The translations under genes and the position numbers were made by a program. A model generated the notes under the pieces. That model searched no databases, was not told where the DNA came from, and was given only the letters and a program-made list of their open reading frames with translations. Positions 3,260 to 58,701 of a stretch of 64,000 nt of DNA are shown in pieces (position 1 is the stretch's first letter; each line of letters opens with the position of its first letter). The stretch spans positions 2,294,001 to 2,358,000 of the forward strand of contig NZ_VFPG01000001.1 in the NCBI RefSeq assembly GCF_006716565.1, in the 5' to 3' direction. This stretch comes from Nocardia bhagyanarayanae. Lineage in GTDB: Bacteria; Actinomycetota; Actinomycetes; Mycobacteriales; Mycobacteriaceae.

Positions 3260-3568
3260 AGCTGAACTTGTTCCTTTTTATTTCCGGACCGCCTAATGTT
3301 CGCAATGCGCGGTGACATCCGTGTGATGTAGGAAACACCACCGGGGGCGTGGACCGACCCCCCGGCAGCGGAGTTGGAGGAACGATCAAGAGTTAGGCCC
3401 GGTGGCTCCGGCCGCCGATCTCGTCTCACCAAATTGTTGGATCTCGCGCCGGTGACGTCGTCACCGTTCGCGCTCTCGCCGAATCGCCTTCCGGTAGCGC
3501 CCATGCCGTCTATTCGTGCTGCCCAAAAGCGCTCGGCCAGCTGTTGTTTCGCTAACGAGGAGGCTCTG
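3260..3568 (+). promoter_or_regulatory. Probable promoter and leader region of the NRPS operon
   Basis: About 310 bases lie between the terminator and the chosen NRPS start. The first part is AT-rich (TTTTTATTTCC, 3274-3284) and includes TAATGT at 3294-3299, a possible -10. A small dyad ACATC-N5-GATGT lies at 3315-3329. I looked for an iron-regulator (IdeR) box and found only a TTAGGC half-site near 3391, which is not enough to claim iron control. No further gene is seen here. Confidence 0.35.
3557..3563 (+). promoter_or_regulatory. Strong ribosome binding site fixing the GTG start of NRPS1
   Basis: GAGGAGG lies 5 bases before GTG 3569. Upstream in-frame candidates, including a TTG at 3374, have no comparable site, and the 65 residues they would add look nothing like an NRPS N-terminus. 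Confidence 0.7.
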
Positions 3569-6500
3569 GTGCACGGTACGGAGTTGGGTGGGTTCAGCGC
3601 GCGGCCGAACGGGAGCGCGGCGAGCCGTACACCGTCCCCCACACCGTTTTCGCTAGCTCCCGCGCAGCTCGGCCTCTGGTACGCGCAGCTGCTCGAGCCC
3701 GAGATCCCGATCAACGTCGCGCAATACGTAGACGTACGCGGCGAGCTGGACGCCGCTCTGCTGCAAGAGGTTTCGCGCGAGGCGGCGCTCGACTACGGGT
3801 CGACGCTGGTGCGGCTCGGCGAGGACGGCGGAACGCCGTATCAGTGCGTCGATCCCGAATTGCCCATCGAGATCCCGCTGATCGACTTCCGTTCGCACGC
3901 CGATCCGGTCGCCGCCGCGATGGAGTGGATGCGCGCCGACGCCTGCGCGCCGGTGGATCTGCTGCGCGACCGGCTGTTCGCGGGCGCGGTGCTGCGGGTC
4001 GCCGACCAGCGCTACTTCTGGTACCTGCGGGCCCACCACATCGTGCTCGACGGCTACGGCGCGCTCACCAACACCATGCGGGTCGCCGAGCGCTACACCG
4101 CGCGGGTGCTCGGCGCCGAGCCGGAAGCGATCCGGCCGGGCAGCCTGGAAGCGCTGGTCGAGGGCGAGATCGCCTACCGGCAGAGCGGGCGCTACCAGAC
4201 CGATCGCGCGCACTGGGCCGAACGGGTGGCCGGGCTGGACGGCGTGACCAGCCTGGACCCGCGCACCGCGCCGCGTGCCGCGAGCAACCTCATCGTCGGA
4301 CGCGGCTTGCCCGACCAGCTGGTCGAGCGGATGAACGCCGTTGCCGCAAGCCAGGATTCGACGATCGCGGTGGTGCTGCTCGCGGCCTTCGCCGGTTATC
4401 TCGGCCGCCTGACCGATCGCGACGACGTGGTGCTGAGTCTGCCGGTCACCGCGCGCACCACCGCCGCGATGCGGCGCTCCGCGGGCATGCTCTCCAACAT
4501 CGTGCCGCTGCGAATGGCGTTGGGCGCGGCCACCTGGGGCGACCTGCTGCGCGCCACCCGAGTGGAGGTCGCCGGGGCGCTGCGGCACCAGCGGTACCGG
4601 CACGAGGACATCCGCCGCGACGCCGAACACGACGGCCGCCCGGCCCGGCGTGCGCTGTTCGGGCCGCTGGCCAACATCATGCTGTTCCGCAGCGACCTCA
4701 CGCTCGGCGCCACGACCGGCCGGTACCACGTGCTCTCCACCGGGCCGGTGGAGGATCTGAGCCTGAACGTCTACTACGGCGAGCGCGACCGCGTGCACGT
4801 CGACTTCGAGGCGAACCCGAATCTCTACGCGGCCGACGATCTGGCCCGCCACCACGCGCGCTTCCTCCAGTACCTGGAGCGACTGGTGGCCGCGGACCTG
4901 GACACGCCGATTTCCGCGGTCGACGTGACGACCGAGCTGGAAATAGAGGTGAGCACCCGGATTTGGAACGCCACCGGCTGCGACGTCGACGCGCTGCTCG
5001 CCGCCCGCGCTCCCGGCGCGCACTCCGCCGCGACGCTGGTGTCGATGTTCGAGGCGCAGGCCGCCCGCACCCCGGACGCGGTCGCGCTGCGTTTCGCGGG
5101 CGCGCCGGAAGCCACTCTGACCTACCGCGAGCTGACCGCCCGGGTGAACCGGCTGGCCAGGTATCTCATCGAGCGCGGCGTCGGGCCGGAGAGCCTGGTC
5201 GCGCTGCACCTGCGCCGGTCACCGGAGTTGGTCGTCGCGATGTACGCGGTCCTCACCGCGGGCGCGGCCTACGTGCCGCTGGATCCGGATCATCCGGCCG
5301 AGCGCACCGCGCACATCCTGGCCACCGCCCGTCCGGTCTGCGTCCTCGGCGCCGAGGATGTGGAGCTCGACGCGCCGACGGTGCGGCTGGATCGCCTGGA
5401 CCTCGCCGGGTACCAGGAAGGACCGGTGTGGGAGCGCGAACGGCTCGCGGCGCTGCGACCGGACCACCCCGCTTATGTGATCTTCACCTCGGGCTCCACC
5501 GGCAAGCCCAAGGGCGTGCTGGTGACCCACGGCGCCATCGTGAACCGGCTGGTGTGGATGCAGGAGAACTACCGGCTGACAACCGCCGACGTGGTGTTGC
5601 AGAAGACCCCCGCCACCTTCGACGTCTCGGTGTGGGAGTTCTTCTGGCCCTTGCAGATCGGCGCCGAGCTGGTGCTCGCCCAGCCCGACGGACATCGCGA
5701 CCCGGCGTACCTGCGCGAAGTCATCGCCGAATATCGCGTAACGGTTGTCCATTTCGTGCCGTCCATGCTGGAAGCCTTTCTGGCGCATCAGGACGTCGCT
5801 CGCGACACCACCCTGCGCGCGGTGTTCGCCTCGGGCGAGGCGCTGCCCGCCCCGCCGGCCCAGCGACTGCGGGTGCTGACCGGCGCCCGGCTGCACAACC
5901 TGTACGGTCCCACCGAAGCTGCGGTGGACGTCACCTTTCACGAGGTGACCGATACCGATACCCTCTCGGTGCCGATCGGCGCGCCGGTGTTCAACACCCG
6001 GCTCTATGTGCTCGACTCGCGGCTGCGGCCGGTACCGGTCGGGGCTCCGGGTGAGCTGTATCTGTCGGGGGTACAGCTCGCCCGGGGTTACGTGGCCAGG
6101 CCCGGCCTGACGGCCGAACGTTTCCTCGCCGACCCGTTCGCCGGTCCGGACGGCCCCGCCGCGCCGGGCGACCGTATGTACCGCACCGGCGACCTGGTGC
6201 GCTGGACGACCAACGGCGAACTGGAATACCTGGGACGCACCGATTTCCAGGTGAAGCTGCGCGGCCTGCGGATCGAACTCGGCGAGATCGAGGCGGTGCT
6301 CGGCACGGTCGACTCGGTGGTGCGCGCCGTCGTCGTGGTGCGCGACGACGCGGGCGCGGGCGAGCAGCTGGTGGCCTACGCGGTCGAGTCCGAGCCCGGC
6401 ACGGTGCGTCCCGAGCAGCTGCGGGCCGCGGCGGCCGCGGCGCTGCCCGGCTACATGGTGCCCGCGGCCTACGTGGTGCTCGATGCCTTGCCGGTCAACG

Positions 6501-9500
6501 CCTCGGGCAAATTGGATCGCGGCGCGCTGCCCGCGCCGCCGCACCGCACCGGCGAGTACCGCGCGCCGGTCACGCCGGTCGAGCAGGCGGTCGCCCGCGT
6601 GTTCGGCGAGGTGCTCGGCCGCGAATCCGTCGGCCGCGACGACGACTTCTTCGCACTCGGCGGCAACAGCCTGGTGGCCACGCAGGTGGCCGCCCGGCTG
6701 GCCGCCGACTTGGGCTGCCCGCTCGGGGTTCGCGAATTGTTCACCGCCACCACGGTGACCGATCTCGCCGAACTGATCGAGCGGGCGGGCGGAACCGGCG
6801 GCGCGTCCGCGCCCCGCCTGCTGCGGGTGGTGCCGCGGCCGCCGCTGGTTCCGCTTTCTCTCGCACAGCAGCGGATCTGGTTCCTGAACCGATTCGAACG
6901 TTCCGCCGCCGACTACAACATGCCGTTCGTGGTGCGGCTGCGCGGCGATGTGGACGTGACCGCCCTGCGCCTGGCGGTCGCCGACGTGGTGGCGCGGCAC
7001 GAGGTGCTGCGCACGGTGTTCCCCGCCGTGCTCGACGAGCCCGGTGTCCCGGCGCAGCAGATCGTGCTGCCCGCCGGCGATGTCACCGTGCTCGAGGCGG
7101 CCGAGCCGATCGGCGTGGACGAACTGGACGCGGCGCTCGCCGGTTTCGCCGCCACCGGGTTCGACCTGGAGCGGGAGATCCCGCTGCGCGCCCGGCTGTT
7201 CGCCGTGGACGCCGACGGCTACGCGCTGGCGCTCGTGTTGCACCACATCGCCGCGGACGGACTCTCGTTGCGCGTGCTGGCCCGCGACGTGGCCACGGCG
7301 TACCGGGCCCGCCGCACCGGCGCCGCGCCGGACTGGGCGCCGCTCGCGGTGCAGTACGCCGATTACGGCCTGTGGCAGCGGGAATCGCTCGGCGCGGCGT
7401 CGGACCGGGACGCGCCGCTGGCCCGTCAGCTGGCCTACTGGACCGAGGCGCTGGCCGACGCCCCCGATCTGCTGGAGCTGCCCACCGATCGGCCGCGTCC
7501 CGCGATCGCCACCGGTCGCGGCGCGGTGTACCGCTTCCAGCTGCCCGCCGCGATCGCCGAGCGCGTCACCGCGACCGCGCGCGCCAACGGACTCTCCGAG
7601 TTCATGGTTCTGCACGCCGCGCTCGCGGTATTGCTCGCTCGGGTGTCGGGAAGCGCGGACATCGTGATCGGCACTCCGGTGGCCGGGCGCGGCGAACGCG
7701 AACTCGACGACCTGATCGGCATGTTCGTCAACACGCTCGTCCTGCGGACCCGGGTCGACGCCGCCGGGACCGGCGCGGAGTTGCTCGCCGCGGTGCGCGC
7801 GGCCGACCTCGCCGCCTTCGGTCACGCGCAGGTTCCGTTCGAGCAATTGGTCGAGGCGCTGAACCCGCCGCGCTCCCAAGCCAGGCATCCGCTCTTCCAA
7901 GTGCTGCTCTCGGTCGACAATGCCGCCGACATCGAGTTCGGGCTCCCCGGAATATCGGTGCGCACCGGTACCCTGGACACCGGGGTGACCAAGTTCGATC
8001 TCCAGCTCACGGTCACCGCAGGCTTCGCCGGTGCCGGACTCGGGGAAGGTTCGGCACCGGCGGGGGTTCCGGCCGAATTCACCTACGCCACAGATCTGTT
8101 CGACGAGGCGAGCGTCGCCGACTTCGCGCGGTGGTACCTGCGCGTGCTGGAAGGGCTGACCGGTGATCCGGAGACGGCGGTCGGTGATCTACCGCTGCTG
8201 GACACCGCCGAATTGCGCTGGGCGATCGAACGAGGCTGGGCCGGGGAGCCGGGTTCGTCTGTGGAGCCAGACTTCTCGCTCGCCGCCGAGGAGACCGTGC
8301 CTGTCGCGTTCGAAGCGCAGGTCAGCCGTACTCCGGACGCCGTCGCGATCATCGACGGCGAGCGCACTCTGACCTACGCGGAATTCGCGGCGCGGGTGCA
8401 TCGCCTGGCCCGGCATCTCATCGCCTGCGGGATCGGCCCCGAGACGCTGGTCGTGCTCGGCATGCGGCGCAGCGCGGATTTCGTGATCGCGGCCTACGCG
8501 GTGCTGACCGCGGGCGGCGGGTACGTCCCGGTCGATCCGGATCAACCGGCGGCGCGGATCACCCACGTGCTGGCATCCGCCCGCCCGGCGTGCGTGCTGA
8601 CCCGATCCGCCGACGGCTGGGTGTCGGAAGAAGTGCCGGTCATCGAGGTGGACGCACTCGACCTCACGGAATACCCGGACGTTCCGGTGCTCGACGGCGA
8701 GCGCCTGCGCCCGCTGCGCGCCGCCACCACCGCGTATGTCATCTTCACTTCGGGCTCCACTGGTCGCCCGAAAGGCGTTGCCGTGCAGCACGCCTCGGTG
8801 GCGAATCAGATCCGCTGGATCGTCGGCGAGTACGGTGTCGGCCCCGCCGATGTGGTGCTGTTCAAGACACCGGCCACCTTCGACGTCTCGGTCTGGGAAC
8901 TGTTCGCGCCGTTGACGAGCGGCGCGCGCTTGGTGGTCGCGGCGCACGACGGGCACCGCGACAGCGCCTACCTCGCGTCGACCATCGCCGCGCACGGCGT
9001 CACGATGACCTCCTTCGTCCCCTCGATGCTCACGGTGTTCGCCGCCGCCGCGCCCGCCGCGTCGCTCGCCACCCTGCGCGCCGTCCTCGTCGCGGGCGAG
9101 GCGATGACCGGCGAGGCCGCCGCGGCGTTCGCCGCCGTCAGCCGTGCCGAACTGCACAACCTGTACGGCCCGACCGAATTCACCGTGCACGCCACGCACG
9201 CGCCGGTCGTCGCGACGGCGGGCCCGACCCCGATCGGGCGGCCGGTGCGCGCCAGTCAGGTGCTCGTGCTGGACGGTCGGCTGCGCCCGGTACCGGAAAC
9301 CGTTGTAGGCGAACTGTATCTGTCGGGCGTGCAGGTCGCGCGCGGCTACCACGGCCGTGCCGAGCTGAGCGCCGAACGATTCGTCGCCAATCCGTACGGC
9401 CCCGCGGGCGCGCGCATGTACCGCACCGGCGATCTGGTGCGGCGCAACCGCGACGGACAGCTGGAATACCTGGGGCGCAGCGACTTCCAGGTGAAGCTGC

Positions 9501-12500
9501 GCGGCCAGCGCATCGAGCTCGGCGAGATCGAGGCGGCGCTGTCGGCCGCCGCCGATGTGCGCGCCGCCGCGGTGCGGGTCTTCGCCCATCCGGCCGGTGA
9601 ACTGCTGGCGGCGTACGTGGTGACCGACCTGCCGGAGGACGAGGTGGCCGCGGTGTTGACGGGCAGGCTGCGCGCGGCGCTGCCGTCCTACATGGTGCCG
9701 ACCGCGTACGTCGCGCTGGCGGCCATGCCGCTGACGGGCTCGGGCAAGCTGGATCGCAAGGCGCTGCCCGATCCGGTCTTGGCGGCCAAGGACTTCCGCG
9801 CCCCCGTCACCCCGGCCGAACGCGCGGTGGCCGAGGTGTTCGCCGAAGTGCTCGAACTCGACCGCGTCGGCTTGGACGACGACTTCTTCGCCGTGGGCGG
9901 AAATTCCTTGGTGGCCACCAGGATCGCCGCGCGGCTCGCCGCACGCACCGAGGTCGACGTGCCGGTCCGGCTGCTCTTCGAACATCCCACCGTGGCCGCA
10001 CTGGCCGCCGCGCTCGCCGCCGCGCGCACCACACGCACCCGTCATCCGCTGGTCGCCGCCGAGCGTCCCGACCTGGTGCCGCTGTCCTACGCCCAGCAGC
10101 GGATGTGGTTCCTGAACCAGTTCGACGCGGCGTCCACCGCGAACAATCTGACCGCGGCGGTGCGCCTCACCGGTCCGCTGGACCGGGCGGCCCTGGCCGC
10201 CGCCGTCACCGACGTCGTCGCCAGACACGAGACGTTGCGCACCAGGTACCCGGCCGTCGACGGCGTCGCGCGGCAAGAGGTGCTGCCCGCCGACCGAGGC
10301 CCCGTCCTTGCGGTCGATGAGGAAGCCGGTGACCTACTCGAACGGGTACATGCCCTCGCCGCAACACCTTTCGTCGTGACCCAGGCGCCGCCCGTGCGAC
10401 TGACGCTGCTGCGAGGCGCCGACGGGCACCACGATCTGTCGCGCACCGGCCCCGGCGGCCGTCGTAGTAGTGCCCGCGCCGTGGTGCACGACGAGCACGT
10501 GCTGGTCGTCGCGCTGCACCACATCACAGCGGACGGCTGGTCCATCGCGCCCTTCACGCGAGACCTTCTGCGCGCCTACGCCGCTCGCCGCGATGGCGCC
10601 GCGCCGGACTGGTCGCCCCTCCCGGTGCAGTACGCCGACTACACGCTGTGGCAGCGCCGAAACCTCGGCTCGGCGGACGATCCCGGCTCGCTGCTGGCCG
10701 AGCAGCTGCGCTTCTGGTCCGCCGAACTGGCCGACCTGCCCGATCTCCTCACCCTGCCCGCCGACCGGCCCCGCCCAGCCGCCGCTTCGGGGCGCGGCGC
10801 ACGGCATCCCTTCCACATCCCCGTCGCGACTCACCGCCGCCTGCGCGAGATCGCCGAGTCCGCGAACGCCTCGCTGTTCATGGTGTTGCACGCGGCCTTC
10901 GCCGTGACGCTGGCGAAGCTCTCCGGCCAGCGCGACATCGCGATCGGCACCCCGGTCGCGGGCCGCGGCGAGCAGGCGCTCGACGAGTTGGTCGGCATGT
11001 TCGTCAACACCCTGGTACTGCGCGCAGACGTGCGCCCCGAACGCACCTTCGCCGAGCTCGTCGCGGCCGTGCGCGACGGCGACCTGCGCGCGTTCGCCAA
11101 CGCCGACGTGCCGTTCGAGCGGCTGGTCGAGGCGCTCGACCCCGAGCGGTCGGCGGCCAGACACCCGCTGTTCCAGGTGATGCTGGACTTCCAGAACACC
11201 GCGAGCGCCGCCGTCGAGCTGGCGGGCCTGCGCGTCGAAAGACTCGACATCGACACGCGCACAGCGAAATTCGATCTCCAGCTCACCCTCACCGAGACGG
11301 CCGACGGCCTCGACGCCGCCTTCGACTACGCGACCGACCTGTTCGACGCCGACACCGTCGTGGCGTTCGCGGCCCGCTTGCGGCGCGTGCTCGACGCGGT
11401 CTGCGCCGATTCCGCGGTGCTCGTCGGAGACATCGACACACTGTCGGCGGGCGAGCGCACCCAGCTGCTGTGCTCGTGGAACGCCACCGCGCGCGCCCTC
11501 GACCCCGCCGCGACGCTGGTGTCGCTGTTCGAGGCGCAGGCCCGGCGCACGCCGGACGCGGTCGCGGTGAGCTTCGAAGGCCAGTCCCTCACCTATCGCG
11601 AGTTCGCGTCCCGGGTCAACCGCCTGGCCCGGCTGCTGGTGTCCATCGGCGTGGGGCCCGAGAGCACCGTGGCGATCGGTATGCGGCGCTCCGTGGATCT
11701 GGTCGTCGCTATGTACGCGGTGCTGACAGCGGGCGGGGCCTACGTCCCGGTGGACCCGGACCATCCGGCCGAGCGCATCGAGCGCGTTTTGCGCGGGGCG
11801 CGGCCGGTGTGCGTGCTGAGCCGCACGGAAGACGGCCTGGATCTCCCGCCGTCCGAGCGCGATTCACACGTGTGGGCGGTGCTGGACGTCGACCAGTTCG
11901 ACACCACCGACTACTCCGACGCCCCGCTGACCGACGCGGACCGGCTCGCCGCGCTCGTCCCTGGCAACGCGGCCTACGTCCTGTTCACCTCGGGGTCGAC
12001 CGGCGAGCCCAAGGGCGTCGTGGTGTCGCACGCGGCGATCGTCAACCGGTTGCTGTGGATGCAGGCCGAGTACGAACTCACGGCCGAGGACGTCGTCCTC
12101 CAGAAGACGCCCGCGACATTCGACGTCTCGGTGTGGGAGTTCTTCTGGCCGTTGCAGATCGGCGCACGGCTTGCGGTGGCGCGCCCGGACGGTCATCGCG
12201 ACCCGCGCTACCTGGCCGAGCTCATCGACCGGGAACGGGTGTCGGTGGCGCACTTCGTGCCGTCGATGCTGGCGGTGTTCGTCGCGGAACCCGCCGTGGC
12301 GCGGTGTGATTCGCTGCGCATGGTGTTCGCCTCCGGCGAGGCGCTGACGCCGGGGCCCGCGCAGCGGCTGCGCGCGTTGACCGGCGCCCGGCTGCACAAC
12401 CTGTACGGGCCGACCGAGGCGGCCGTGGACGTCACCTACCACGAGGTGGTCGACGCGGACACCGACAGCGTGCCGATCGGCGTTCCGGTGGCCAATACCC

Positions 12501-15500
12501 GGGTGTACGTGCTCGATTCGCGCCTGCGCCCGGTCCCGGTCGGCGTACCGGGCGAGCTGTACCTCGCGGGCGCGCAGCTCGCGCGCGGGTACGTGCGGCG
12601 GCCGGACCTGACCGCGGATCGATTCGTGGCCAACCCGTTCGCCTGCGCCGAGCGTATGTACCGCACCGGCGATCTCGTCCGATGGGTGCCCGCATCGCGA
12701 AGCGATTCGACGGGTGGTCCGAAGCTCGCCGAGCTGGAGTATCTGGGCCGCACCGATTTCCAGGTCAAGCTGCGCGGACTGCGTATCGAGCTCGGCGAGA
12801 TCGAGGCCGCGCTGACCGCGCTGCCGGAGATCGACCAGGCCGTGGTCGTGGTGCGCGACGACACCCGGCTCGTCGCGTACCTGATCGGCGCGTCCGTCAT
12901 CGACATCGACTCGGTGAAAGCGGCGCTGGCGCAGCGGATTCCGGCGTATATGGTGCCGTCGGCCTTCGTGCCGATGGACGAGTTCCCGCTCAACGCCTCG
13001 GGCAAGCTGGACCGCAAGGCGCTGCCCGCGCCGGTGTTCGAGGCAGCGGTCTTCCGCGCGCCGGTGACACCCACGCAGCACATCGTCGCGCGCGTCTTCG
13101 CCGACGTGCTCGGCGCACCGCGGGTCGGTCTCGACGACGACTTCTTCGCGCTAGGCGGCAATTCGCTCACCGCGACCCGGGTGGTGGCCCGGCTCGGCGC
13201 GGCGCTGGACACCCAGCTGCCGGTCCGGGTGCTCTTCGACGCGCCCACCGTGGATGCCCTCGCGACACAGGCCGAAGCGTCGCGCGGTCGCGGCGGGCGG
13301 CCCGCGCTCACCGCGCGCCGGCGCCCGGAGCGGTTGCCGCTCTCGCCCGCGCAGCAGCGGATCTGGTTCCTGAACCGCTTCCTCGCCGACTCCGACGGGC
13401 CGGGCGACGCGGTGAGCAACATCCCGGTCGCGCTCCGGCTCGGCGGTGACCTCGATGCCGAGGCGCTCACCGCGGCGCTCGGCGATGTCATCGAACGGCA
13501 CGAGGCGCTGCGCACGGTGTATCCGGCCGGGCCGGACGGCGCCGAGCAGGTGATCCTGCCGCGCTGGAGGCCCGTGCTGCGCCGCGAAGCGGTGCCGGAG
13601 CCGGCGCTGACCGAGCGCCTCGCCGCCTGCGCCGCGGTCACTTTCGACCTCACCGAAGAAACACCCCTGCGCGCCCACCTGTTCGCGCTGACCGGAACCG
13701 ACACTGTCGAGCACGTGCTGCTGCTCGTGCTGCACCACATCTCGGCCGACGGATTCTCGCTCGGCCCGCTGGCCGCCGACCTGATGACCGCCTACGCCGC
13801 CCGCCGCGACGGCGGCGCGCCGGGGTGGGGTCCGCTGCCCGTGCAGTACGCCGACTACACCCTGTGGCAGTCCGAAATTCTCGGCGACCCCGACGATTCC
13901 GAGTCGCGCGCGCGGCGCCAGCTGGAATTCTGGCGGCGCGCCCTCGGCGACCTGCCCGATCAGCTCGAGCTGCCCGCCGACCGCAAACGTCCGGCCGTGT
14001 CCACGCACCGCGGTGCGACGCACCGGCTGCGCATCGACTCCGACCTGCACAGCGAATTGCGCGAGCTGGCACGCAAGCGGGAGACGACGCTGTTCAGCAC
14101 CGTGCACGCGGCGCTCGCCGTGCTGCTCGCCCGGCTGTCGGGCAGCGCGGATATCGCGATCGGCACCCCGGTCGCCGGGCGCGGCGAGGCCGAACTCGAC
14201 GGCTTGGTCGGCATGTTCGTCAACACCCTGGTGCTGCGCAGCCGCATCGATCCGCGCGCCCGGTTCGAGACGGTCCTCGACGAAATCAGGTCGCGCGACC
14301 TGGAGGCGCTCGCGCACGCCGACCTGCCCTTCGAGCGGCTGGTCGAGCTCGTCGCCCCGAACCGCGCGCGCAACCGTCACCCGTTGTTCCAGGTGGCGCT
14401 CACCATGCAGAACTTCACCGTGCCCGCGCTCGAGCTCGCCGGACTCCGGGTGAGTCCGGTCGAGCTGGACGCGGTCGCGGCCGAGTTCGACCTCCAGTTC
14501 ACGGTGCTCGCCGCCGACGACTCGGACGGCCGCGCCGATGGCATCGACATCGAGATCACCTACGCCACCGATCTTTTCGAGCCCGAGACGGTAGCGGTGC
14601 TGGCCCGCCGGTTCACCCAGGTGCTCGCCGCGGTCGCCGCGGACGCGACGGTGGTCGTCGGCGACATCCAACTGCTCTCCGCGGAGGAGCAGCGGCGGGC
14701 GCTGGTCGAATGGGCGAGCACCGGTCCCGATCTGGCGGCCGCCGACGAGACGCTGGTGGACCGCTTCCGCCGCGCCGCGGCGCTCGACCCGGCGGCCGTC
14801 GCGGTGCGCGCGGGCGAGGACGTGCTGAGCTACGGCGAGCTGTCCGCCAAGGCGAACCGGCTGGCCCGGCGGCTGATCGCCGCGGGCGTCGGACCGGAAA
14901 CCTTGGTGGCGGTGGCGCTTCCGCGTTCGGTCGAGCTGGTCGTCGCGTTGCTGGCGGTCCTGGAGGCGGGCGGCGGCTACCTGCCGATCGATCCCGACTA
15001 TCCGGCCGACCGGATCGAGTACATGATCGACGACGCGCGGCCGATCTGCGCCGTCGGCTCCGCCACGACGGGTTTGCCGCGCGACTGGTTCGGCGGCCCG
15101 GTGCTGGACGTGGACGCCGACCTCGAGTCGGTGAGCGCCGAACCGCTGACCGACGCCGACCGCCGCGCCCCGCTGCACCCGGCGCAGACCGCCTACGTCA
15201 TCTACACCTCCGGGTCCACCGGCCGCCCCAAGGGTGTCGTCGTCCCGCACCGCAATGTGTTGCGGCTGCTGGACAACACCCGGCGCCACTTCGAGTTCGG
15301 TCCTTCGGACGTGTGGACGATGTTCCACTCCTACGCTTTCGACTTCTCGGTGTGGGAGCTGTGGGGCGCGCTGCTGTGCGGCGGCGAACTCGTGGTGGTG
15401 GACTACTTCACCTCGCGCTCACCGGAGCAGTTCCGTCGCCTGCTCGTCGAGCGCGGGGTGACGGTGCTGAACCAGACGCCGTCGGCGTTCTACCAGCTCA

Positions 15501-18500
15501 TCGCCGCCGACGCCGCGGCCGAACCGGCCGAATTCGCCTTGCGCGATATCGTTTTCGGCGGCGAGGCGCTGGAGCCGCAGCGGCTTGCCGGGTGGTTCGC
15601 GCGGTATCCCGACGGACCGCGCCTGGTGAACATGTACGGCATCACCGAGACCACGGTGCACGTGTCGTACCGCCCGATCGAGCCGGGCGCGGGCTCGGCG
15701 AGCGTCATCGGCGGCGCGATTCCTGGCCTCGCGGTGCGGGTGCTCGACGCGCGGTTGCGGCCGGTTTCGGTGGGCGTGCCGGGCGAGATCTACGTCTCCG
15801 GCGGCCAGCTCGCGCGCGGCTACCTCGGCAGGCCCGCGCTCACCGCGAGCCGCTTCGTCGCCGATCCCTACGCCGTGGACGGCTCGCTTGCCTACCGCTC
15901 GGGCGACCTGGCGCGCTGGACCGCCGACGGCGACCTGGAATACCTCGGCCGCGCCGACCAACAGGTGAACCTGCGCGGGTTCCGCATCGAGCTCGGCGAG
16001 ATCGAGGCGGCCGTGCTGGACACCGGCGCGGTCCGCGAAGCCGCGGTGGTGGTGCGCGCCGATCTGGTGGACGAGGCGCGCATCGTCGCCTACGTCGTCG
16101 CCGACGACTCGGTGGACGCGGCCGCGCTGCGCGGCGAGCTCGCGCGGACGCTGCCCGAGCACATGGTGCCCGCCGCCATCGTCACGCTGGAGCGAATCCC
16201 GTTGACGGTCAACGGGAAACTCGATCGCGCCGCGCTGCCCGCACCGGTCTTCGCATCGACGACCTACCGCAAGCCGGGCACGGTCGTCGAGGAGATCGTC
16301 GCCGGGGTGTACGCCGACGTGCTCGGTCTGACCGCCGAGGCGCGCCGGGTCGGCGCCGACGACGACTTCTTCGCCCTCGGCGGCAGCTCCCTGCTCGCCG
16401 CCAAGGCCGCCGCCCGCATCGGCGCGGCGCTGGGCAGGCCGGTCGGCGTCCGCGCGCTGTTCGAGGCGCCGCGGGTCGCCGAACTGGCCGCGAACGTCAC
16501 CGCGGGCGAGGCCGGAGCCGCGCGGCCGCCGCTGGTGGCCGGCGCGCGACCGGCGACGCTGCCGCTCTCGCCCGCGCAGCGGCGGATGTGGTTCCTGAAC
16601 CGCTTCGACGGCGCGTCCGCCGCATACAACATCCCGCTGGCGCTGCGGTTGACGGGCGACGTGGACGTACCCGCGCTCCAGTCCGCGCTGGCCGACGTCA
16701 TCGGCAGGCACGAATCGCTGCGCACCACCTATCCCGAGCGGGAAGGCGCGCCGACGCAGCGCATTCTTCCTGCGGCGCAGGCCGTTCCGGCGCTGTATCC
16801 GGTGGATATCACCGAAGCCGACCTGCCGCAGCGCGTTCGGGAGCTGGCGAGCACCGCCTTCGACGTCACCGCCGAGGTCCCCTTGCGAATGCGGTTGTTC
16901 CGCATCGGCCCCGCCGACTTCGTGCTGGCGGGCGTGCTGCACCACATCGCCGCGGACGGATCTTCCGTCGCGCCGTTCGTGCGCGATCTGATGACGGCCT
17001 ACACCGCCCGATTGGACGATCGAGTGCCGTGCTGGTCGCCGCTGGCGGTGCAATACGCCGACTACGCACTCTGGCAGCGGGAACTGCTCGGCGCGGAGGA
17101 CGATCCGGACTCCCGCGCCGCCGAGCAGATCGGCTACTGGACCGAGGCGCTGGCCGGACTTCCCGATCAGCTCGCGCTGCCCACCGACCGTCCGCGCCCG
17201 GCGCGGCAGAGTCTGCGCGGCGCGAAGACGACCCGGCCGGTGCCGCCGCGGCTGCACGAGCAGTTGATCGGCCTCGGTCGCGCGCACGGTGCGACGCTGT
17301 TCATGGTCGTGCACGCCGCGTTCGCCGCGCTGCTCGCCCGGTTGTCCGGCACCGGCGACATCGCCGTCGGCACACCCATCGCCGGGCGCGGCGAGGCGGA
17401 GCTGGACGACGTGATCGGCATGTTCGTCAACACCCTGGTGCTGCGCACCCGCGTCGAGGGCGGACAGACCTTCGCCGAGCTGCTCGGGCACGCGCGCGCC
17501 GCCGACATCGCCGCCTTCTCGCACGCCGACGTGCCGTTCGAGCGACTGGTCGAGGTGCTGGCCCCCGAGCGCTCCACCGCGCGGCACCCGCTGTTCCAGG
17601 TCGGCTACTCGTTCCAGAACCACGAGCGCGGCGAGTTGCGACTGCCCGGGCTCACGGTGCGCGAGCTCGAATTCGACAACGGCGTCGCGCAGTTCGATCT
17701 GCACCTGTTCGCCGTCGACCGCTACGCCGCCGACGGCACGCCGGAGGGCATCGAGCTGACCCTCGGCTACGCCACCGACCTTTTCGAATCCGGCACCGGC
17801 GAGCGGGTGATCGACCGACTGGTGGACGTGCTCGAATCCGTTGTCGCACTGCCCAACACGCTGATCGGCGACCTGGACGTGCTCGGCGACGAGCGTGCGC
17901 GCGTACTGGGGGAGTGGAACGCCACGGCCCATCCGGTCGAGCCGGTGACGCTCGCCGATCTGGTGGACCGGCAGGCGGCACGGACGCCGAACGCTCCGGC
18001 GCTGATCGACGCGGAGTCCGGAAAGACGTTGAGCTACGCGGAGTTCGATGGCCGCGTCAACCGGCTGGCGCGGGCGTTGATCGGGCACGGCGTCGGCCCC
18101 GAGCGCACCGTGGTGCTGGCCATGCGCCGGTCCGTCGAGCTGGTGATCGCAATGTACGCGGTGGTGCGAGCCGGTGGCGCGTACGTGCCGGTCGACCCGG
18201 ATCATCCGGCCGACCGCATCGCCTACATCGTCGACACCGCCGCACCGGTCTGCGCTCTCACCACCGTGGCGGACGGCATGCCGATCGAGACCTCGGTGCG
18301 CGTGCTCGAGGTCGACTGGCTCGAGGCGGCGCACCGATCGGCGGCGCCCATCACGGACGGCGAGCGGATTCGGCCGCTGCGCCCGGAGCACCCTGCCTAC
18401 GTCGTCTTCACCTCCGGCTCGACCGGGCGGCCGAAGGGCGTCACCGTCCCGCACGCGGCGATCGTCAACCAGTTGGCTTGGCTGCGCGAGCGTTTCGCGC

Positions 18501-21418
18501 TCGGCGCGGCCGACCGGACCCTGCTGAAGACGCCGGCGACCTTCGACCTCTCGGTGTGGGAGTTCTGGTCCCCGCTGGTCACCGGCGGCGCGCTGGTGGT
18601 GACCCGGCCCGGCGACGAGCGCGATCCGGATCGGCTGCACGCGCTGATGGCGCGGCACGGCGTGACGGTGCTGTACGCGGTGCCGTCCCTGGTCGGCATG
18701 CTGCTCGCCGCCGCGCCGGATGACCCGTTGCCCGCCGGGTTGCGGCAGGTCCTCGCCATCGGCGAGGCGCTGCCGCCCGCGACCGCCGCCGAGTTCCTCG
18801 ATCGGGCGACGGGCGCGCGGCTGCACAACCTCTACGGACCGACCGAGGCGGCGGTCTCGATCACCGCGCACGAGGTGGTCGCGCGGCCGAGCCGGACGGT
18901 GCCGATCGGCGCGCCCGCCTGGAACAGCCGGGTGTACGTGCTGGACAGCAGGCTCCAGCCGGTCCCGATCGGCGTCGCGGGCGAATTGTATTTGGCGGGC
19001 GCGCAATTGGCGCGCGGCTACCAGAGCAGGCCCGGATTGACGGCGGACCGCTTCGTGGCGGACCCGTTCGCGGCCGGGGCGTCGCGGATGTACCGCAGCG
19101 GCGATATCGTCCGGTGGCGCGCCGACGGCGAGCTCGAATACCTCGAACGGGCCGATTTCCAGGTCAAGATCGGCGGCTTCCGCATCGAGCTCGGCGAGGT
19201 CGAGACGGCGCTGCGGCGCCTGCCCGAGGTGCGGGCCGCCGTGGCCGTCGCCAAGACGGACGAGCGGGCGGGCGCGCGGCTGGTGGCGTACGTCGTGCTG
19301 GGTGACGGGCACGCCGAATCCGCAGCGGAGTTGCGAGCCACACTCGCGACGCGACTGCCGACCTATATGGTGCCCGCCGCCATCGTCGTGCTGGATACCT
19401 TGCCGCTCAACGCCAATGGCAAGGTCGATCGCGCGCGGCTGCCCGAGCCGGTCTTCGCCGAGGGGGCCTTCATCGCACCGGCCACCGACCTGGAGCGACT
19501 GGTCGCCGCCACCTTCGCCGAGGTCATCGATGGTGCGCACGACCCAGGAGCGGACCGAGTCGGCGCCGACACGGACTTCTTCGCCCTGGGCGGCAATTCC
19601 CTGCTCGCGACGCGGCTCTCGGCCAGGCTCGGCGCCGAACTCGGGGTGCGGGTGCCGGTCGCCGCGGTGTTCGAGGAGCCGACGGTGGCGGGGCTCGCGC
19701 TTCGGCTCGCGGATCTGGACGACGCCGGCGCTCGACCCGCTCTGGTGCGGCGCGACCCCACCCGTCCGGCCCGCCTCGCGCCCGCGCAGCAGCGCATGTG
19801 GGTGATGAACCGGCTCGCGCCGGACTCGGCCGCGTACAACATCCCCGTCGCCATCCGGCTCACCGGCGCACTGGACCACGACGCGCTGACGGCGGCCGCG
19901 CGGGACGTCCTCGCGCGGCACGAGGCGCTGCGCAGTCGCTACCCGGACCTGCCGGAAGGTCCGGTGCAAGATGTGCTGGACACCGATGGGGTGGCCTTCG
20001 ATCCGACGCCGATTCCGGTGCGGCCAAACGAGATCGACGCCCGTATCGCCGAGTTCGTCAGCGCCGGTTTCGACGTGACCATCGCGCCTCCGGTCCGGGC
20101 AGTGCTGTTCGCACCGGCCGCCGACGAGCACGTCCTGGTCGTCGTGCTGCACCACATCTGCGCGGACGGCTACTCCATCGCACCGCTGACCAGGGATCTG
20201 GTCCGCGCCTACGCCGACCGCGCGGCGGGCCGCGCGCCGGGCTGGACCCCGCTCGCCATCCAGTACAGCGACTACAGCGAATGGCAACACGCCCTGCTCG
20301 GCGCCGCCGGCGACCCTGACTCATTGCTCACACAGCAACTCCGCTACTGGACAACGGAATTGGCGGGCGCACCCGAAGTCCTGGCGCTGCCGACCGATCG
20401 TCCACGCCCGGCGCACCGCGATATGCGCGGCGCGGCTGTCGATTTCGAGATCGACGCCGAGCTGACCATCGCGCTCGAGCTGATCGCGCGCGAGCACGGC
20501 ACCACGCTGTTCACCCTGTTGCACAGTGCGCTCGCGGTGCTCCTCGCCAAGCTGTCCGGCGCGACCGACATCACCATCGGCGCACCGGTGGCCGGGCGCG
20601 GCGCGGCCGAACTCGACGACCTGATCGGCATGTTCGTCAACACCGTCGCGCTGCGCACCGAGATCGACCCGCGCTCCGGCTTCGCCGATCTGCTCCGCCA
20701 GGCCAGGGATCGCGACCTGGCCGCGCTCTCGCACGCCGACGTGCCCTTCGATCAGGTGGTCGAAGCGATGGGCCGCACCAGATCCAGCGCCTACACGCCG
20801 CTGTTCCAGGTGATGTTCACCTTCCAGAACATGCCCACCGGCCGCGTCGAACTGCCGGGACTCGCGGTCGAAGTCCTCGATCCCGCGCCGGACGAGGCGA
20901 AGTTCGACCTACAGCTCACCGGCATCGAGCGCTTCGACGCCGTCGGCGCGCGGACCGGTCTCGCGCTCCGATTCGGTTACGCGACAGATATTTTCGACAG
21001 GTCGACCGTCGAGCGCTACGCCGAACGGCTGCTGCTCGTGCTCGCCGCAGTGGCGGCGGACCCGACCGTCGCGATCCGCGCCATCGACATCCGCACCGAC
21101 GGCGAGCAGCGTCCCTCGGCAGCGCCGACGGCCACGGTCGCCGACCTGCCCGATCTGATCGCGTCGGCCGCCGCCGTCGCCCCCGGCGCGCTCGCCTTCA
21201 GCCACGGCGCGCACCGGGTGTCCTACGCCGACCTCGCCGCGAAGCTGGCCACCGTCGCCAAGGCCATGGGCGCGGCGGCGACACCGGAAGTCCTCATCAA
21301 CGTCTCGCTCGCCGGGCTGGTGCCCGGCGTGCTCGCGGCGCTCGGCGGCGATGGCCTCGCCGCCGCGCTGCACCGCCTCCTCGCCGAGGCTCAGGCCGTG
21401 GTCTCCGAAAGGAATTAG
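3569..21418 (+). CDS. Giant nonribosomal peptide synthetase, modules 1-5 plus the C domain of module 6
   Basis: A protein of 5949 residues with domain order C-A-T x5, then C6 and a broken A-domain N-terminus. Every C domain has HHxxxDG, every A domain has the TSGSTG loop and the GK(L/V)DR lysine, and every carrier has GG(N/S)SL with its phosphopantetheine serine. Pocket residues indicate Ser, unassigned, Ser, Thr, unassigned for A1-A5. The first C domain (residues about 26-460, HHIVLDG at about 155) resembles the N-terminal C domains of DhbF/EntF-type synthetases, so an external acyl or aryl donor may feed it. No epimerisation, methylation or reductase domain is present. The TAG stop is 3 bases before the ATG of NRPS2, so the pair is co-transcribed and the growing chain must pass between two proteins inside module 6. 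The product is not recognised. Confidence 0.95.
3640..6800 (+). other. NRPS module 1: starter C - A(Ser) - T
   Basis: C about 3644-4950, A about 5020-6530, T about 6560-6790. The pocket reads D-V-W-H-F-S-L-V-D-K, the classic EntF-type serine code. The C domain differs from all later ones ([31 protein letters not shown] near its end), which marks it as a starter-type domain. Confidence 0.85.
6840..10030 (+). other. NRPS module 2: C - A(unassigned) - T
   Basis: C about 6843-8200 with HHIAADG, A about 8270-9780, T about 9800-10020. The pocket reads D-V-W-S-L-A-L-V-H-K. The final H recalls threonine-type pockets, but the whole does not match a code I can name. Confidence 0.75.
10060..13290 (+). 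other. NRPS module 3: C (with insertion) - A(Ser) - T
   Basis: C about 10070-11440, A about 11500-13040, T about 13060-13290. The pocket D-V-W-H-F-S-L-V-D-K predicts serine. The C domain carries about 22 extra residues (10426-10493, rich in Arg, Gly and Ser) just before HHITADG. A short insertion at 12681-12712 lies between core motifs A7 and A8. Confidence 0.8.
13315..16510 (+). other. NRPS module 4: C - A(Thr) - T
   Basis: C about 13320-14690 with HHISADG, A about 14740-16250, T about 16280-16500 with GGSSL. The pocket D-F-W-N-V-G-M-V-H-K is a textbook threonine/allo-threonine code. This A domain is visibly different from its neighbours ([19 protein letters not shown]), so it has a separate ancestry. 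Confidence 0.85.
16540..19725 (+). other. NRPS module 5: C - A(unassigned) - T
   Basis: C about 16545-17890 with HHIAADG, A about 17940-19450, T about 19480-19720. The pocket reads D-L-W-Y-L-I-L-V-S-K. It shares the DLW-LILVS frame with module 13, where position 278 is T instead of Y. I cannot name the substrate. Confidence 0.75.
19755..21110 (+). other. NRPS module 6, first part: stand-alone C domain
   Basis: This C domain has HHICADG around 20150 and normal C-terminal core regions, but no full A domain follows it on this protein. Its partner A-T pair opens the next gene. Confidence 0.8.
21133..21415 (+). other. Broken A-domain N-terminus at the C-terminal end of NRPS1
   Basis: The last ~95 residues start with [16 protein letters not shown] and continue with an A1-like SYADLAAKL.. 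segment. They stop before any nucleotide-binding motif and finish in a helix-like tail ([13 protein letters not shown]). The piece is too short to adenylate anything. It resembles the N-terminus of NRPS2 (35 identities over about 84 aligned residues by hand count), so a docking or linker role is plausible. Confidence 0.7.
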
Positions 21419-21421
21419 CTG

Positions 21422-46806
<25,385 letters not shown>

Positions 46807-46810
<4 letters not shown>

Positions 46811-52440: not shown

Positions 52441-53349
52441 TCAGACGAGGTTCTTCTCCTTGCGGATCCTGCGACGCAGATCGGCCATCAGCGCGTGGCT
52501 GCCACTGTGCCGAAGGAACCGCGGGATGAACCGGTTGACGAAGCCGACGAACACGAACAGGTGCTCGAAGCGGCGCTGATCGGCGGCCGTCCACTCCAGC
52601 CGCATCTGCTCGCGGAAGTACGGCGCGAGGAAGCCGATCGTCAAGAACTTCAACAGGTTCCGGAACGGCAGACGTAAGTACCAGTGGATCATGCGCAGGT
52701 TCAGCAGGTCGTCGACGTAGGCGCGCACGTAGTCGTCGAGGACGGCCTGGCGGCAGGCCTCGTTCCAGTAGACGTCGAACTCGGCGCGCGTCTTGGGCCA
52801 CATGTCCTCGGTGACCTGAAGCGTGGTGCCAAGAGTCGAGGACGAGGCGTAGAAGGCTTCGGCCTGCTCGTCGTTCATCTTGCCTTGGAGCAGCTGGTAG
52901 GTGTCCTCGAAGCCGATGTACAGGCATGCCGCGACCCACAATTGGAGGTTGCGGTCGAAGGCGTTGTACTTCACCGGCGCCCCGGGCTCGGACCGCACGT
53001 GGCGGTGCACCGAGTCGACCGCCTTGCGATAGGCCATGCGCTCTTCCTCGGTGCCCAGGATCGCCACCGCCAGGTACTGGGTGGTGGTGCGGGCGCGCTT
53101 CCACGGACGCTTCATCAGCGCACCGGATTCCACCTTGCTCTCCGCGACGCCGTAACCCACTCCGGGCCTTGCCATTTGCATCGCCACGTTGGCAGCCGCG
53201 CCGGCGAAGGACCAGAAGTCCAGCGCGTCGGACAGTCTGATCGGCCGCTTGGTGAACGGACGGTGCGCGGAGCTTATCGGGATGCGCGTCTGCTCCTTGG
53301 TCAGTGGCGCCGGTTCGTTCTGGTGCGAGGAGTGGGCGACCGCGGTCAT
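52441..53349 (-). CDS. MpaB-family oxygenase (DUF2236)
   Basis: A protein of 302 residues with the hallmarks of the MpaB / latex-clearing-protein family of b-type haem oxygenases: a KRPWKRARTTTQYLAVAILGTEEERMAYRKAVDSVHRHVR block with the candidate haem-ligand histidine, then YNAFDRNLQLWVAACLYIGFED. Family members catalyse oxidative cleavage or related oxidations of lipids and polyisoprenoids, mostly uncharacterised in actinomycetes. The start ATG at 53349 is preferred over the upstream one at 53388 because GGAAGGA lies 6 bases in front of it on the minus strand. A small ATCGGT-N10-ACCGAT dyad overlaps the upstream region. The gene converges with the serine hydrolase and is divergent from the small membrane protein pair. 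Confidence 0.75.
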   Translation of the reverse strand: MTAVAHSSHQNEPAPLTKEQTRIPISSAHRPFTKRPIRLSDALDFWSFAGAAANVAMQMARPGVGYGVAESKVESGALMKRPWKRARTTTQYLAVAILGTEEERMAYRKAVDSVHRHVRSEPGAPVKYNAFDRNLQLWVAACLYIGFEDTYQLLQGKMNDEQAEAFYASSSTLGTTLQVTEDMWPKTRAEFDVYWNEACRQAVLDDYVRAYVDDLLNLRMIHWYLRLPFRNLLKFLTIGFLAPYFREQMRLEWTAADQRRFEHLFVFVGFVNRFIPRFLRHSGSHALMADLRRRIRKEKNLV

Positions 53350-53386
53350 CGGAGTCCTTCCGTCGGGTTCCCGGGTGTGATCACCC

Positions 53387-53408
53387 ATCGGTCGATTATG
53401 TTACCGAT
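53387..53408. promoter_or_regulatory. Dyad upstream of the oxygenase gene, possible operator
   Basis: ATCGGT (53387-53392) and ACCGAT (53403-53408) form an inverted pair 10 bases apart, about 38 bases before the oxygenase start. The arm length and spacing suit a TetR-type operator, but no regulator gene is adjacent. Confidence 0.3.
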
Positions 53409-56253: not shown

Positions 56254-57678
56254 ATGCTTCTCGATCCCAGTGGCCGCGGGCCGAGCGCCCGCCAGCTCTC
56301 CCTGGCCGGTCTCGCCATGCTGACGGCCACCGCGATTCTGCTCGGCCTGCTGATGCTGCGCTACAACGGCTTCTTCGAGGACAAGGTCCGGGTGACCGCC
56401 GAACTGACCAGCACCGGCGACGGCCTGCCCACGCGGGCAGACGTGAAGTTCCGCGGCATGGTGGTCGGCACGGTCGCGGGCGTCGAGGTGGTCGCCAAGG
56501 GGGAACGGCAGCGCGCCGAGATCCACCTGAAACCCGCCGTCGCGCCGACGATTCCGGCCGGTGTCACGGCCAGAGTGGTGCCAAACAACCTGTTCGGCGT
56601 CACCGCGATCGAACTCGTCGACAACGGGTCGGCGGGCGCGAAACTGGCCGCCGGAGCGGTGATCCCGGAGGACACCAGCACCTCGACGATGCAATTGCAG
56701 ACCACGCTCACCGTCCTGCGCGACGTGCTCGACAACATCCAGCCCGAGAAGCTCGGCCGGGTGCTCGCGACCCTCGCCGCCGCGCTCGACCCCGCCGCGC
56801 GCGTACCGGGTTCGACGATCGAGCGGCTGGACCGCTGGGTCACGGAAGTGCGCGCGATCCCCGGCGTCGGCGAACTGCTCGGCGATCTCGGCCGGGCCAC
56901 GACGGAACTCAGCAAGTCGGCTCCCGACCTGGTGGGCGTGCTCGCCGAGTCGGTCACGGCGGCACGGACGCTCACCGAGCGCCGTGACAACCTCGTCGCG
57001 CTGCTCGCCAACGCTGGCAGCACCATCGACTCGGTCAACTCGCTGTTCGCCAGAAACCCGGACGCGGCAAAGGATCTCGTCCCCGGCTTGGACGAGCTGT
57101 TCGGCAGTCTGGCCCAGGACCCGCAGGCCATTCCGGACACCGCGCGCAACCTCAACGCGTCGCTGGCGAAGCTGGCCACCGTGTTCCACTTCGGCCCGAG
57201 CCGCCAGATGGTGTGGAAGATGGACGTCAGCTTCACGCCCTTCCAGCAGTACACCGCAGCGGACTGCCCGTCCTACGGTTACCTGACGGGCCCCCGATGC
57301 GGCGGTCCGACGGTACCGGAAGTCGCGCCGGAGCAGGAGTATCCCGCGCAGTTGCAGCCGCGCTGGCTCGACGCCGCCGGACCGCGGCCGACACTCGCCA
57401 TCCCGGGAATCGAAGTGACCCCTGCACTTCCGGGCCTCCCCAGTCTGCCCGTGATTCCCGGCCTCGAGATTCCCGGTCTCCCCGCGATTCCCGGAATCAC
57501 CGTGCCCGCCACGGGCACTCCCGCCGCGCGGCCGATCGCGGGCGGCCGGGGGCACGCCGGAGTCGCGGCGATCGTCGGCGGCCAACCGACCGCCGCGCAA
57601 CTCCTGCTGCTGACGCCGCTGCTGGCCGGCGGGTCGGTGACCGTGTACGACACCTCGCACACCGAAGGGGGCAACTAG
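56254..57678 (+). CDS. mceA: Mce protein, first of six (MceA)
   Basis: A 474-residue substrate-transfer protein of the Mce family. One N-terminal membrane anchor (residues about 17-36) precedes the MlaD/Mce domain (about 44-120, with DVKFRGMVVGTVAGVEV) and a long helical region to about 330 that would build the periplasmic tunnel. The C-terminal tail is unusual: residues about 385-425 repeat Pro-Gly/Leu/Ile units (LPGLPSLPVIPGLEIPGLP..), a flexible or extended arm. The gene follows YrbEB closely and its TAG directly abuts the next ATG. It should sit in the cell envelope bridging the inner and mycolate membranes. Confidence 0.9.
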   Translation: MLLDPSGRGPSARQLSLAGLAMLTATAILLGLLMLRYNGFFEDKVRVTAELTSTGDGLPTRADVKFRGMVVGTVAGVEVVAKGERQRAEIHLKPAVAPTIPAGVTARVVPNNLFGVTAIELVDNGSAGAKLAAGAVIPEDTSTSTMQLQTTLTVLRDVLDNIQPEKLGRVLATLAAALDPAARVPGSTIERLDRWVTEVRAIPGVGELLGDLGRATTELSKSAPDLVGVLAESVTAARTLTERRDNLVALLANAGSTIDSVNSLFARNPDAAKDLVPGLDELFGSLAQDPQAIPDTARNLNASLAKLATVFHFGPSRQMVWKMDVSFTPFQQYTAADCPSYGYLTGPRCGGPTVPEVAPEQEYPAQLQPRWLDAAGPRPTLAIPGIEVTPALPGLPSLPVIPGLEIPGLPAIPGITVPATGTPAARPIAGGRGHAGVAAIVGGQPTAAQLLLLTPLLAGGSVTVYDTSHTEGGN

Positions 57679-58701
57679 ATGAAATCCGGAAGAGCCCTCG
57701 CGGGCTTCGGCTTCTTCGCCGTGCTGGCCATCACGCTGACCTACACCATCTGGTCGACCCTGCAGCGCTCGGTGCCGGGTGACACGCACACCTATTCGGC
57801 GACCTTCTCCGATGTGATGGGCGTGCGGGTCGGTGACGACGTCCGCATGGCGGGCGTGCGGGTCGGCCGGGTCGACCGGATCGATTTCGACGACGACTAC
57901 AAGGCGGTCATCGACTTCCGCATCCAGGACCGGCAGCGACTGACCACATCGACCAGAGCGCTTGTGCGATACCAGAACCTGATCGGCCAGCGTTATATCG
58001 CGCTCGTCCCCGGCAAGGAGGAGGGCGATCCGCTGCCGCCCGGCGGCCACATCTCGCTGGCGAACACCGAACCGTCCTTCGACGTCTCGGCGCTGCTCTC
58101 CGGTTTCGAGCCGCTGTTCAGCGTGCTGCAACCCGACCAGGTGAACTCGCTGTCGGAGACGCTGATTCAGGCGTTGCAGGGCGACGGCGTCTCGCTGAGC
58201 GCCCTGATCACCCAGGCCGCCGATCTGGCGGGCACCTTCGGCCAGCGCGACCGCATCCTCGGCGAGGTGATCACCAACCTGAGCAGCGTCATCGCCGGAT
58301 TGGCCAACCGCTCAGCGGAATTGGAGACGCTCATCGCTCAGTCCAGGGCACTGGTGGAGGCGCTCTACGCCGAAGGCGAGTCGCTCAAGCAGTCCGTCGA
58401 TCTGGTGGCGAAGTCCACCGACTCCCTGGTCTCGCTCATCGCCCAGGTGCAGCCCGACCTCGCCGGGGCACAGAACGACGCCACCACCGGCATCGCGATG
58501 CTGCTGCTCAACGGCGCCGCGCTGGACAAGGCCGCGGTGCAGTTCCCGACCCTGCTCAACGCGCTGGCCCGCTTCACCAGCTACGGCGCGTACGGCAACG
58601 CCTACATCTGCCGCCTCGACGTCTCGCTCTGGGGCGTGCTGCTCCCGCCGGGCTTGTTCTCGCAGGTCGGCGGCGAATCCCAATCGGAGGTCTGCCGATG
58701 A
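57679..58701 (+). CDS. mceB: Mce protein, second of six (MceB)
   Basis: A 340-residue Mce-family protein. Anchor helix at residues about 6-25, Mce domain at about 35-120 (SDVMGVRVGDDVRMAGVRVGRVDRIDFD), then the helical tunnel-forming region with a cysteine pair near the C-terminus (YICRLD.., SEVCR). The ATG starts immediately after the MceA stop and the TGA overlaps the MceC start (ATGA), so all are translated as one unit. Length is normal for MceB. Confidence 0.9.
   Translation: MKSGRALAGFGFFAVLAITLTYTIWSTLQRSVPGDTHTYSATFSDVMGVRVGDDVRMAGVRVGRVDRIDFDDDYKAVIDFRIQDRQRLTTSTRALVRYQNLIGQRYIALVPGKEEGDPLPPGGHISLANTEPSFDVSALLSGFEPLFSVLQPDQVNSLSETLIQALQGDGVSLSALITQAADLAGTFGQRDRILGEVITNLSSVIAGLANRSAELETLIAQSRALVEALYAEGESLKQSVDLVAKSTDSLVSLIAQVQPDLAGAQNDATTGIAMLLLNGAALDKAAVQFPTLLNALARFTSYGAYGNAYICRLDVSLWGVLLPPGLFSQVGGESQSEVCR

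Follow-up and report, generated by a model that had tools for sequence, protein, structure and literature searches.

The window analysed here, a stretch of 64,000 nucleotides from the 7.56 Mb genome of Nocardia bhagyanarayanae, carries two consecutive NRPS genes in the same frame of the forward strand. NRPS1 (3374..21418; 6014 residues in the listed open reading frame, with a putative start codon) has the domain order (C-A-T)x5-C-[C-stub], and NRPS2 (21422..46810; 8462 residues) follows as [N-stub]-A-T-(C-A-T)x7-TE. The last C domain of NRPS1 (residues 5468-5906, 19775..21091) is succeeded by the C-stub (residues 5919-6014, 21128..21415), which is the final element ahead of the TAG stop codon (21416..21418), while the N-stub (NRPS2 residues 24-118, 21491..21775) precedes a complete A domain, the first of NRPS2 (residues 134-627, 21821..23302). 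The domain order was taken from local profiles, with which Pfam agrees for the C, A and T families of NRPS1 and for the first A domain of NRPS2, and the stubs were delimited by local profiles and a stub alignment. Since NRPS1 ends in C-[stub] and NRPS2 opens with [stub]-A-T, the break in this line of 13 modules falls within module 6 and leaves its C half on NRPS1 and its A half on NRPS2. Near the NRPS genes lie a GMC oxidoreductase (173-1642) and an MPAB/Lcp-type oxygenase (52444-53388), and downstream of them six MlaD/Mce-type proteins, of the lipid importer type, stand in a run (56254-63089).

Relation of the stubs to each other and to A domains

The initial annotation had counted by hand about 35 identities over 84 positions between the two stubs, and this close likeness is borne out by BLASTP, which aligns NRPS1 residues 5919-6014 (21128-21415) with NRPS2 residues 29-118 (21506-21775) at 37 identities over 92 positions and 65.9 bits, and by a Smith-Waterman score of 161, where 2000 shuffles average 35.8 (sd 6.8) and reach 73 at most. 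Between the two stubs phmmer gives 38.8 and 40.1 bits, and no A domain of NRPS1 or NRPS2 reaches more than 13.0 bits with either of them. Profile comparison with hhalign gives an E-value of 1.5e-23 for the C-stub against the N-stub, and of 8.4e-11 and 7.9e-10 for the C-stub and N-stub, respectively, against the A-domain N-termini of the window. Judged from sequence, both stubs thus appear to be homologous to the N-terminal part of an A domain (AMP-binding). A search of its own genome with the C-stub returns the C-stub itself first, the N-stub second (E 8e-12) and then ten weaker places with E-values of 4.6e-4 or higher, which are taken for putative A domains of other NRPSs.

Judged by their motifs, both stubs are non-catalytic. 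Neither window stub alone matches any Pfam-A family, docking families included, at E<=10, a simple A3-type glycine-rich pattern is found in 0 of 130 stub pairs, and the full AMP-binding Pfam match begins only behind the N-stub, at NRPS2 residue 134, where the A domain is complete; the absence of nucleotide-binding motifs and the presence of a full A domain behind the second stub had been recognized correctly at the outset. The fold predicted by AF2 for the stub is a-b-b-a-a-a, and no COM, PAX, beta-hairpin or other docking-domain fold is named among the matches listed in structure libraries. In the tightest rows, 41-45 stub residues superpose on A-domain structures at 1.3-2 Å, with all Foldseek E-values above 1, and in the second half of the stub a helix is predicted in place of the strand of the A domain. 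The short superposition and the helical second half make the modelled stub look like a domain of its own rather than a plain truncation, which was rejected for the second half; the initial description of the stubs as truncated copies of an A-domain N-terminus seems right for about the first 45 residues only. The two halves of the pair also differ in charge, with a mean of -11.3 for the N-stub versus -3.0 for the C-stub, and in all 130 pairs it is the N-stub that is more acidic, an argument against a homodimer of N-stubs.

Distribution and history of the pair

Among 148 Nocardia genomes, 94 carry both stubs, one the C-stub only and five the N-stub only. The cut-offs were 110 bits or more for the C-stub (95/148 genomes) and 88 bits or more for the N-stub (99/148), with search profiles built from 37 C-stubs and 37 N-stubs of the same Nocardia genomes, so that those rows match by construction; weaker matches, kept outside these counts, raise the totals to 125 for the C-stub profile and 100 for the N-stub profile. 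The window stub alone as a query finds 104 of the 148 genomes at E<=1e-4. In the Nocardia loci read by script, 0-143 residues, mostly 5-13, separate the end of the C-stub from the stop codon, and every organism name given for the protein relatives of the NRPS1 tail (83 proteins among the matches listed) is Nocardia. The exceptions are of two kinds. In G026 a diverged C-stub lies behind an A domain and the NRPS2 frame opens without an N-stub, and in G005, G085, G096, G105 and G110 the N-stub is kept and the preceding frame is an NRPS1 remnant of 305-554 residues without a C-stub match (L127-L131), which indicates that an N-stub is able to outlive its partner. These cases fit a decay of the assembly line, the alternative being repeat collapse in draft assemblies; G105 is assembled as one contig.

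The pair extends beyond Nocardia. A family draw of 301 genomes from 31 genera contains the C-stub in 86 genomes of nine genera (E<=1e-18), and all 86 also have an N-stub at 70 bits or more. From other genera 53 loci, chosen from stub matches, were fetched; 45 contain a C-stub, and in 45 of 45 a C domain lies ahead of it and the locus also has an N-stub, with an A domain behind the N-stub in all except L189, a short fragment. The named loci belong to Rhodococcus in the wide sense (including Rhodococcoides and Prescottella) or to Antrihabitans, and in all 43 of those found via the C-stub the N-stub is within 2 kb; the distance between the halves is about 11 kb in G174 and 0.9 kb in G177. An order-wide search of 348 genomes from 79 genera gave 12 matches at its threshold, none of them from outside the family. 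The stubs hence appear as matched elements at the donor C-terminus and the acceptor N-terminus, with unpaired N-stubs, in-chain stubs and stand-alone stubs as the exceptions.

A stub tree of 102 rows and 97 columns, which are few for the purpose, places the A domains on one side of a long branch, the C-stubs in one clade (96/95) and the N-stubs in another (96/87), each clade spanning Nocardia and Rhodococcus; two stand-alone stubs fall inside the C-stub clade and three inside the N-stub clade. With one clade per half across both genera, the pair is most simply read as predating the separation of Nocardia from Rhodococcus, or else transfer between the two genera may account for its presence in both. 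The pooled NG86 omega is 0.446 for the C-stub, 0.440 for the N-stub, 0.388 for the C domain and 0.314 for the A domain, estimated from 3930 overlapping and thus not independent pairs of 120 loci with a method that is rough for GC-rich DNA. By this estimate both stubs appear to be under purifying selection close to that of their catalytic neighbours.

In 17 of the 94 two-stub Nocardia genomes (G016, G032, G038, G046, G058, G061, G065, G076, G095, G113, G114, G123, G125, G127, G128, G136 and G146) the two stubs are found on separate contigs or at a distance of over 1 Mb, and both are kept. The separation is on a single contig in G038 (1.8 Mb), G095 (1.4 Mb) and G113 (1.5 Mb); in the remaining genomes, where the stubs are on different contigs, the flanks fetched around the N-stub gene show no C-stub. 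The NRPS1 domains of G038 and G058 follow the order of the window, except for A2 in both and one C2 piece in G058. Their terminal C domains are 69% and 64% identical to that of the window, respectively, and for the first A domain of the NRPS2 lying apart, A1 of the window NRPS2 is the closest in both genomes, at 67%, with a less regular match in the later NRPS2 modules; in G038 both values are the best among all window domains. By sequence, the two halves in G038 look orthologous to those of the window. The N-stubs of the two separated genomes that were sampled form one clade, which probably reflects one rearrangement, inherited since. A frame of A-like domains without an N-stub overlaps the NRPS1 end in L124 of G058 (1030 residues), L136 of G095 (1038 residues) and L133 of G114 (816 residues), and in the frames of G058 and G114 the usual glycine-rich motif is absent by eye.

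Stubs away from the main junction

Stubs are also present in a second NRPS family, for which 18 genomes were taken from the weaker matches of the family draw. In 16 of them an open frame reaches 11,265-11,944 residues, and its stub matches are spaced by approximately 2250-2320 residues (two matches in 15 genomes, and in G190 one at the threshold used). In the five uncut NRPSs of about 11.3 kaa that were read (G165, G190, G221, G318 and G328) module 3 and module 5 each carry a stub, placed between C and A; loci with such in-chain stubs are L306-L308 of G221, L313-L314 of G318 and L323-L324 of G328. In G168 and G225 the break falls on the C|A junction of module 3, with a stub on each side, and these stubs group with the internal module-3 stubs (99/94), with the long-branched G165 stub outside; NRPS2 yielded a second in-chain stub in neither genome. 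As the cut junction has two stubs and the uncut one has one, the pattern appears to be repeated apart from the main family, and the single stubs in unbroken chains imply that a partner across a break is not required for a stub to be there.

At least nine genomes of other genera (G173, G188, G201, G311, G353, G382, G393, G408 and G418) carry two N-stubs to a single C-stub, and the two N-stubs of G188 are nearly identical. The context of the second N-stubs comes from the loci read, with those of G173 and G311 outside: in L214 and L220 they follow a plain terminal C domain, and in the fetched pieces of L200, L211, L213, L216 and L231 no NRPS domain was found upstream. In L211, L213 and L216, from some Rhodococcus, the NRPS with the second N-stub starts beside a secreted-esterase-like frame, which we take to be mycolyltransferase-like, and not behind another NRPS. 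Finally, stubs are encoded on their own in seven genomes of one Rhodococcus-type genus (L173-L179; for example L174:3052-3393, minus strand), as proteins annotated with 113 residues in public records, and eight clusters of this kind came up in the protein database, two of which are named NRPS in Rhodococcus. Directly behind the stand-alone stub, a frame of 512-520 residues, presumably carboxylesterase-like, is present in all four of these loci whose flanks were read. Stand-alone stub frames are found upstream of the giant NRPS gene in G165 and G190 as well.

Function of the stubs and comparison with known systems

In the AF2 prediction of the read-through stub pair each stub folds with a mean pLDDT of 85, and the pTM is 0.46 from a shallow alignment with 23 paired rows; for the whole split module, from an equally shallow 21 rows, the mean pLDDT is 72 and the pTM 0.43. 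At these pTM values the relative placement is not predicted confidently, hence the confident heterodimer that the initial annotation had named as support for docking was not reached, and the split-module model is too poor to guide the C-A geometry. A deeper mixed alignment had set C-only rows on the N half and was left out of the folding. Mean-field DCA of 130 stub pairs (Neff 58) was without a clear signal, and the partial correlation beyond neighbours over 62 loci is 0.31 for stub-stub distances and higher, 0.40, for the N-stub and the C domain; neither coevolution measure is taken as support for docking.

It nevertheless appears fairly probable that the stubs are a heterotypic docking pair which rejoins the split module 6. 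The C-stub, attached to the terminal C domain of NRPS1, and the N-stub, ahead of the first A domain of NRPS2, would bind each other, presumably with specificity, and thereby rebuild a C-A-T module from two polypeptides with the C-A contact restored, so that the NRPS1-bound peptide could meet the amino acid loaded by NRPS2. This reading draws on the terminal placement of the stubs, their co-occurrence, the single clade for each half, the purifying selection and the retention of both after the genes had moved apart. The docking interface suggested in the initial annotation is thus favoured, if indirectly, by recurrence at matched C- and N-terminal ends across species of Nocardia and Rhodococcus, by clades and selection and by retention over more than 1 Mb; charge and clades favour a heterotypic use. 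Stubs without a partner, named there as a sign against docking, were in part observed, in the five Nocardia genomes with an N-stub only and in at least nine genomes of other genera with an extra N-stub.

The stub could instead be an adaptor of the C-A linker which binds its own C or A domain, a carrier protein or a third protein, the copies at both broken ends not binding each other. Such a role would suit the single stubs at the C-A border of the five unbroken chains that were read, the stand-alone stub proteins and the lack of a confidently predicted stub-stub interface; it seems rather unlikely, however, as it leaves unexplained both the two separate clades of the main family and the retention of both stubs by separated genes. 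The homology of the paired stubs, the occurrence of two in-chain stubs, in modules 3 and 5, per giant NRPS and the stand-alone frames upstream of two such genes would also agree with a domain for self-association, through which NRPS chains dimerise or cluster and of which split, in-chain and stand-alone stubs would be one mutual-binding family, but the main-family C- and N-stubs are distinct in clade and charge, which favours a heterotypic use and makes this account improbable. Scars of a gene fission or duplication without present function, the other suggestion of the initial annotation, are very improbable: although the stubs look like A-domain fragments at a gene break and N-stubs last where NRPS1 is a mere remnant, this idea is hard to keep, and a fission scar was rejected, in view of the selection close to that of catalytic neighbours, the clades and the wide retention in two genera, to which the compact predicted fold is added.

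Returning to the docking reading, a more tentative and somewhat doubtful extension would unite all stubs in one family of approximately 90-residue, mutually binding, A-domain-related domains which in Nocardia and Rhodococcus would belong to the C|A junction and would act in cut modules as a C-stub/N-stub pair, in the 11.3-kaa synthetase as one in-chain stub each for modules 3 and 5, and elsewhere as free proteins; the one-donor/two-acceptor genomes, at least nine, could then run branched lines in which one half-module serves two. Natural controls are at hand in the uncut chains with one stub, the donors with two possible acceptors and the free stubs. Engineers use the C-A border for NRPS recombination, and if the docking reading is true, the pair would offer a natural, portable means of cutting an NRPS module between C and A, and would explain how one module can be shared by enzymes encoded 1.8 Mb apart. 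The stubs also provide an annotation handle for a domain overlooked by Pfam.

No report of A-related stubs at NRPS ends, including C-A linkers and the mycobacterial glycopeptidolipid synthetases, was found among the titles and abstract openings searched in the open-licence literature, with most subscription papers outside this scope, and as far as the searched literature goes the stubs are a probable candidate for a docking pair of a new class. A study of Nocardia genomics describes, in the portion available, a conserved 7-13-module Nocardia NRPS as GCF 6 together with its neighbour genes (PMC7413640); the word docking is absent from its main text, and the neighbours it gives were not found among the flanking ORFs scanned here. 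In the sections available of a 2021 review (PMC9113145), COM and PAX are the NRPS-only docking classes, the former joining E to C by a helix-hand and the latter PCP to C by a three-helix element, and a beta-hairpin class is common to hybrids. Like these, the stubs are small non-catalytic elements at matched subunit termini, held to order subunits. Unlike COM and PAX, compared by their description in these sections, they are about 90 residues long, homologous to each other, related to the A-domain N-terminus and placed where a module is cut between C and A.

A chain that breaks off within a module and is linked up again by docking elements is likewise known from the split modules of trans-AT PKSs, but those consist of PKS domains with four-helix or DHD-type docking, and no A-related pair is named in the same sections (PMC9113145). 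The SyrB1/SyrE system is similar in that the A-T and C parts of one module reside on separate proteins, whereas there SyrC carries the substrate between the proteins, and paired stubs are unmentioned in the accessible part of that account (PMC8949500). A further likeness is to the PCP-like adaptor of TomB in the tomaymycin NRPS, a non-catalytic N-terminal look-alike of an NRPS domain, also of about 90 residues, which recruits a partner chain; as set out in the excerpt available, that adaptor resembles a carrier protein and has the donor PCP as its binding partner, while here an A-related domain stands on both sides and no carrier protein is implicated (PMC11186497). The TomB adaptor shows that a partner can be recruited by a look-alike of an NRPS domain (PMC11186497).
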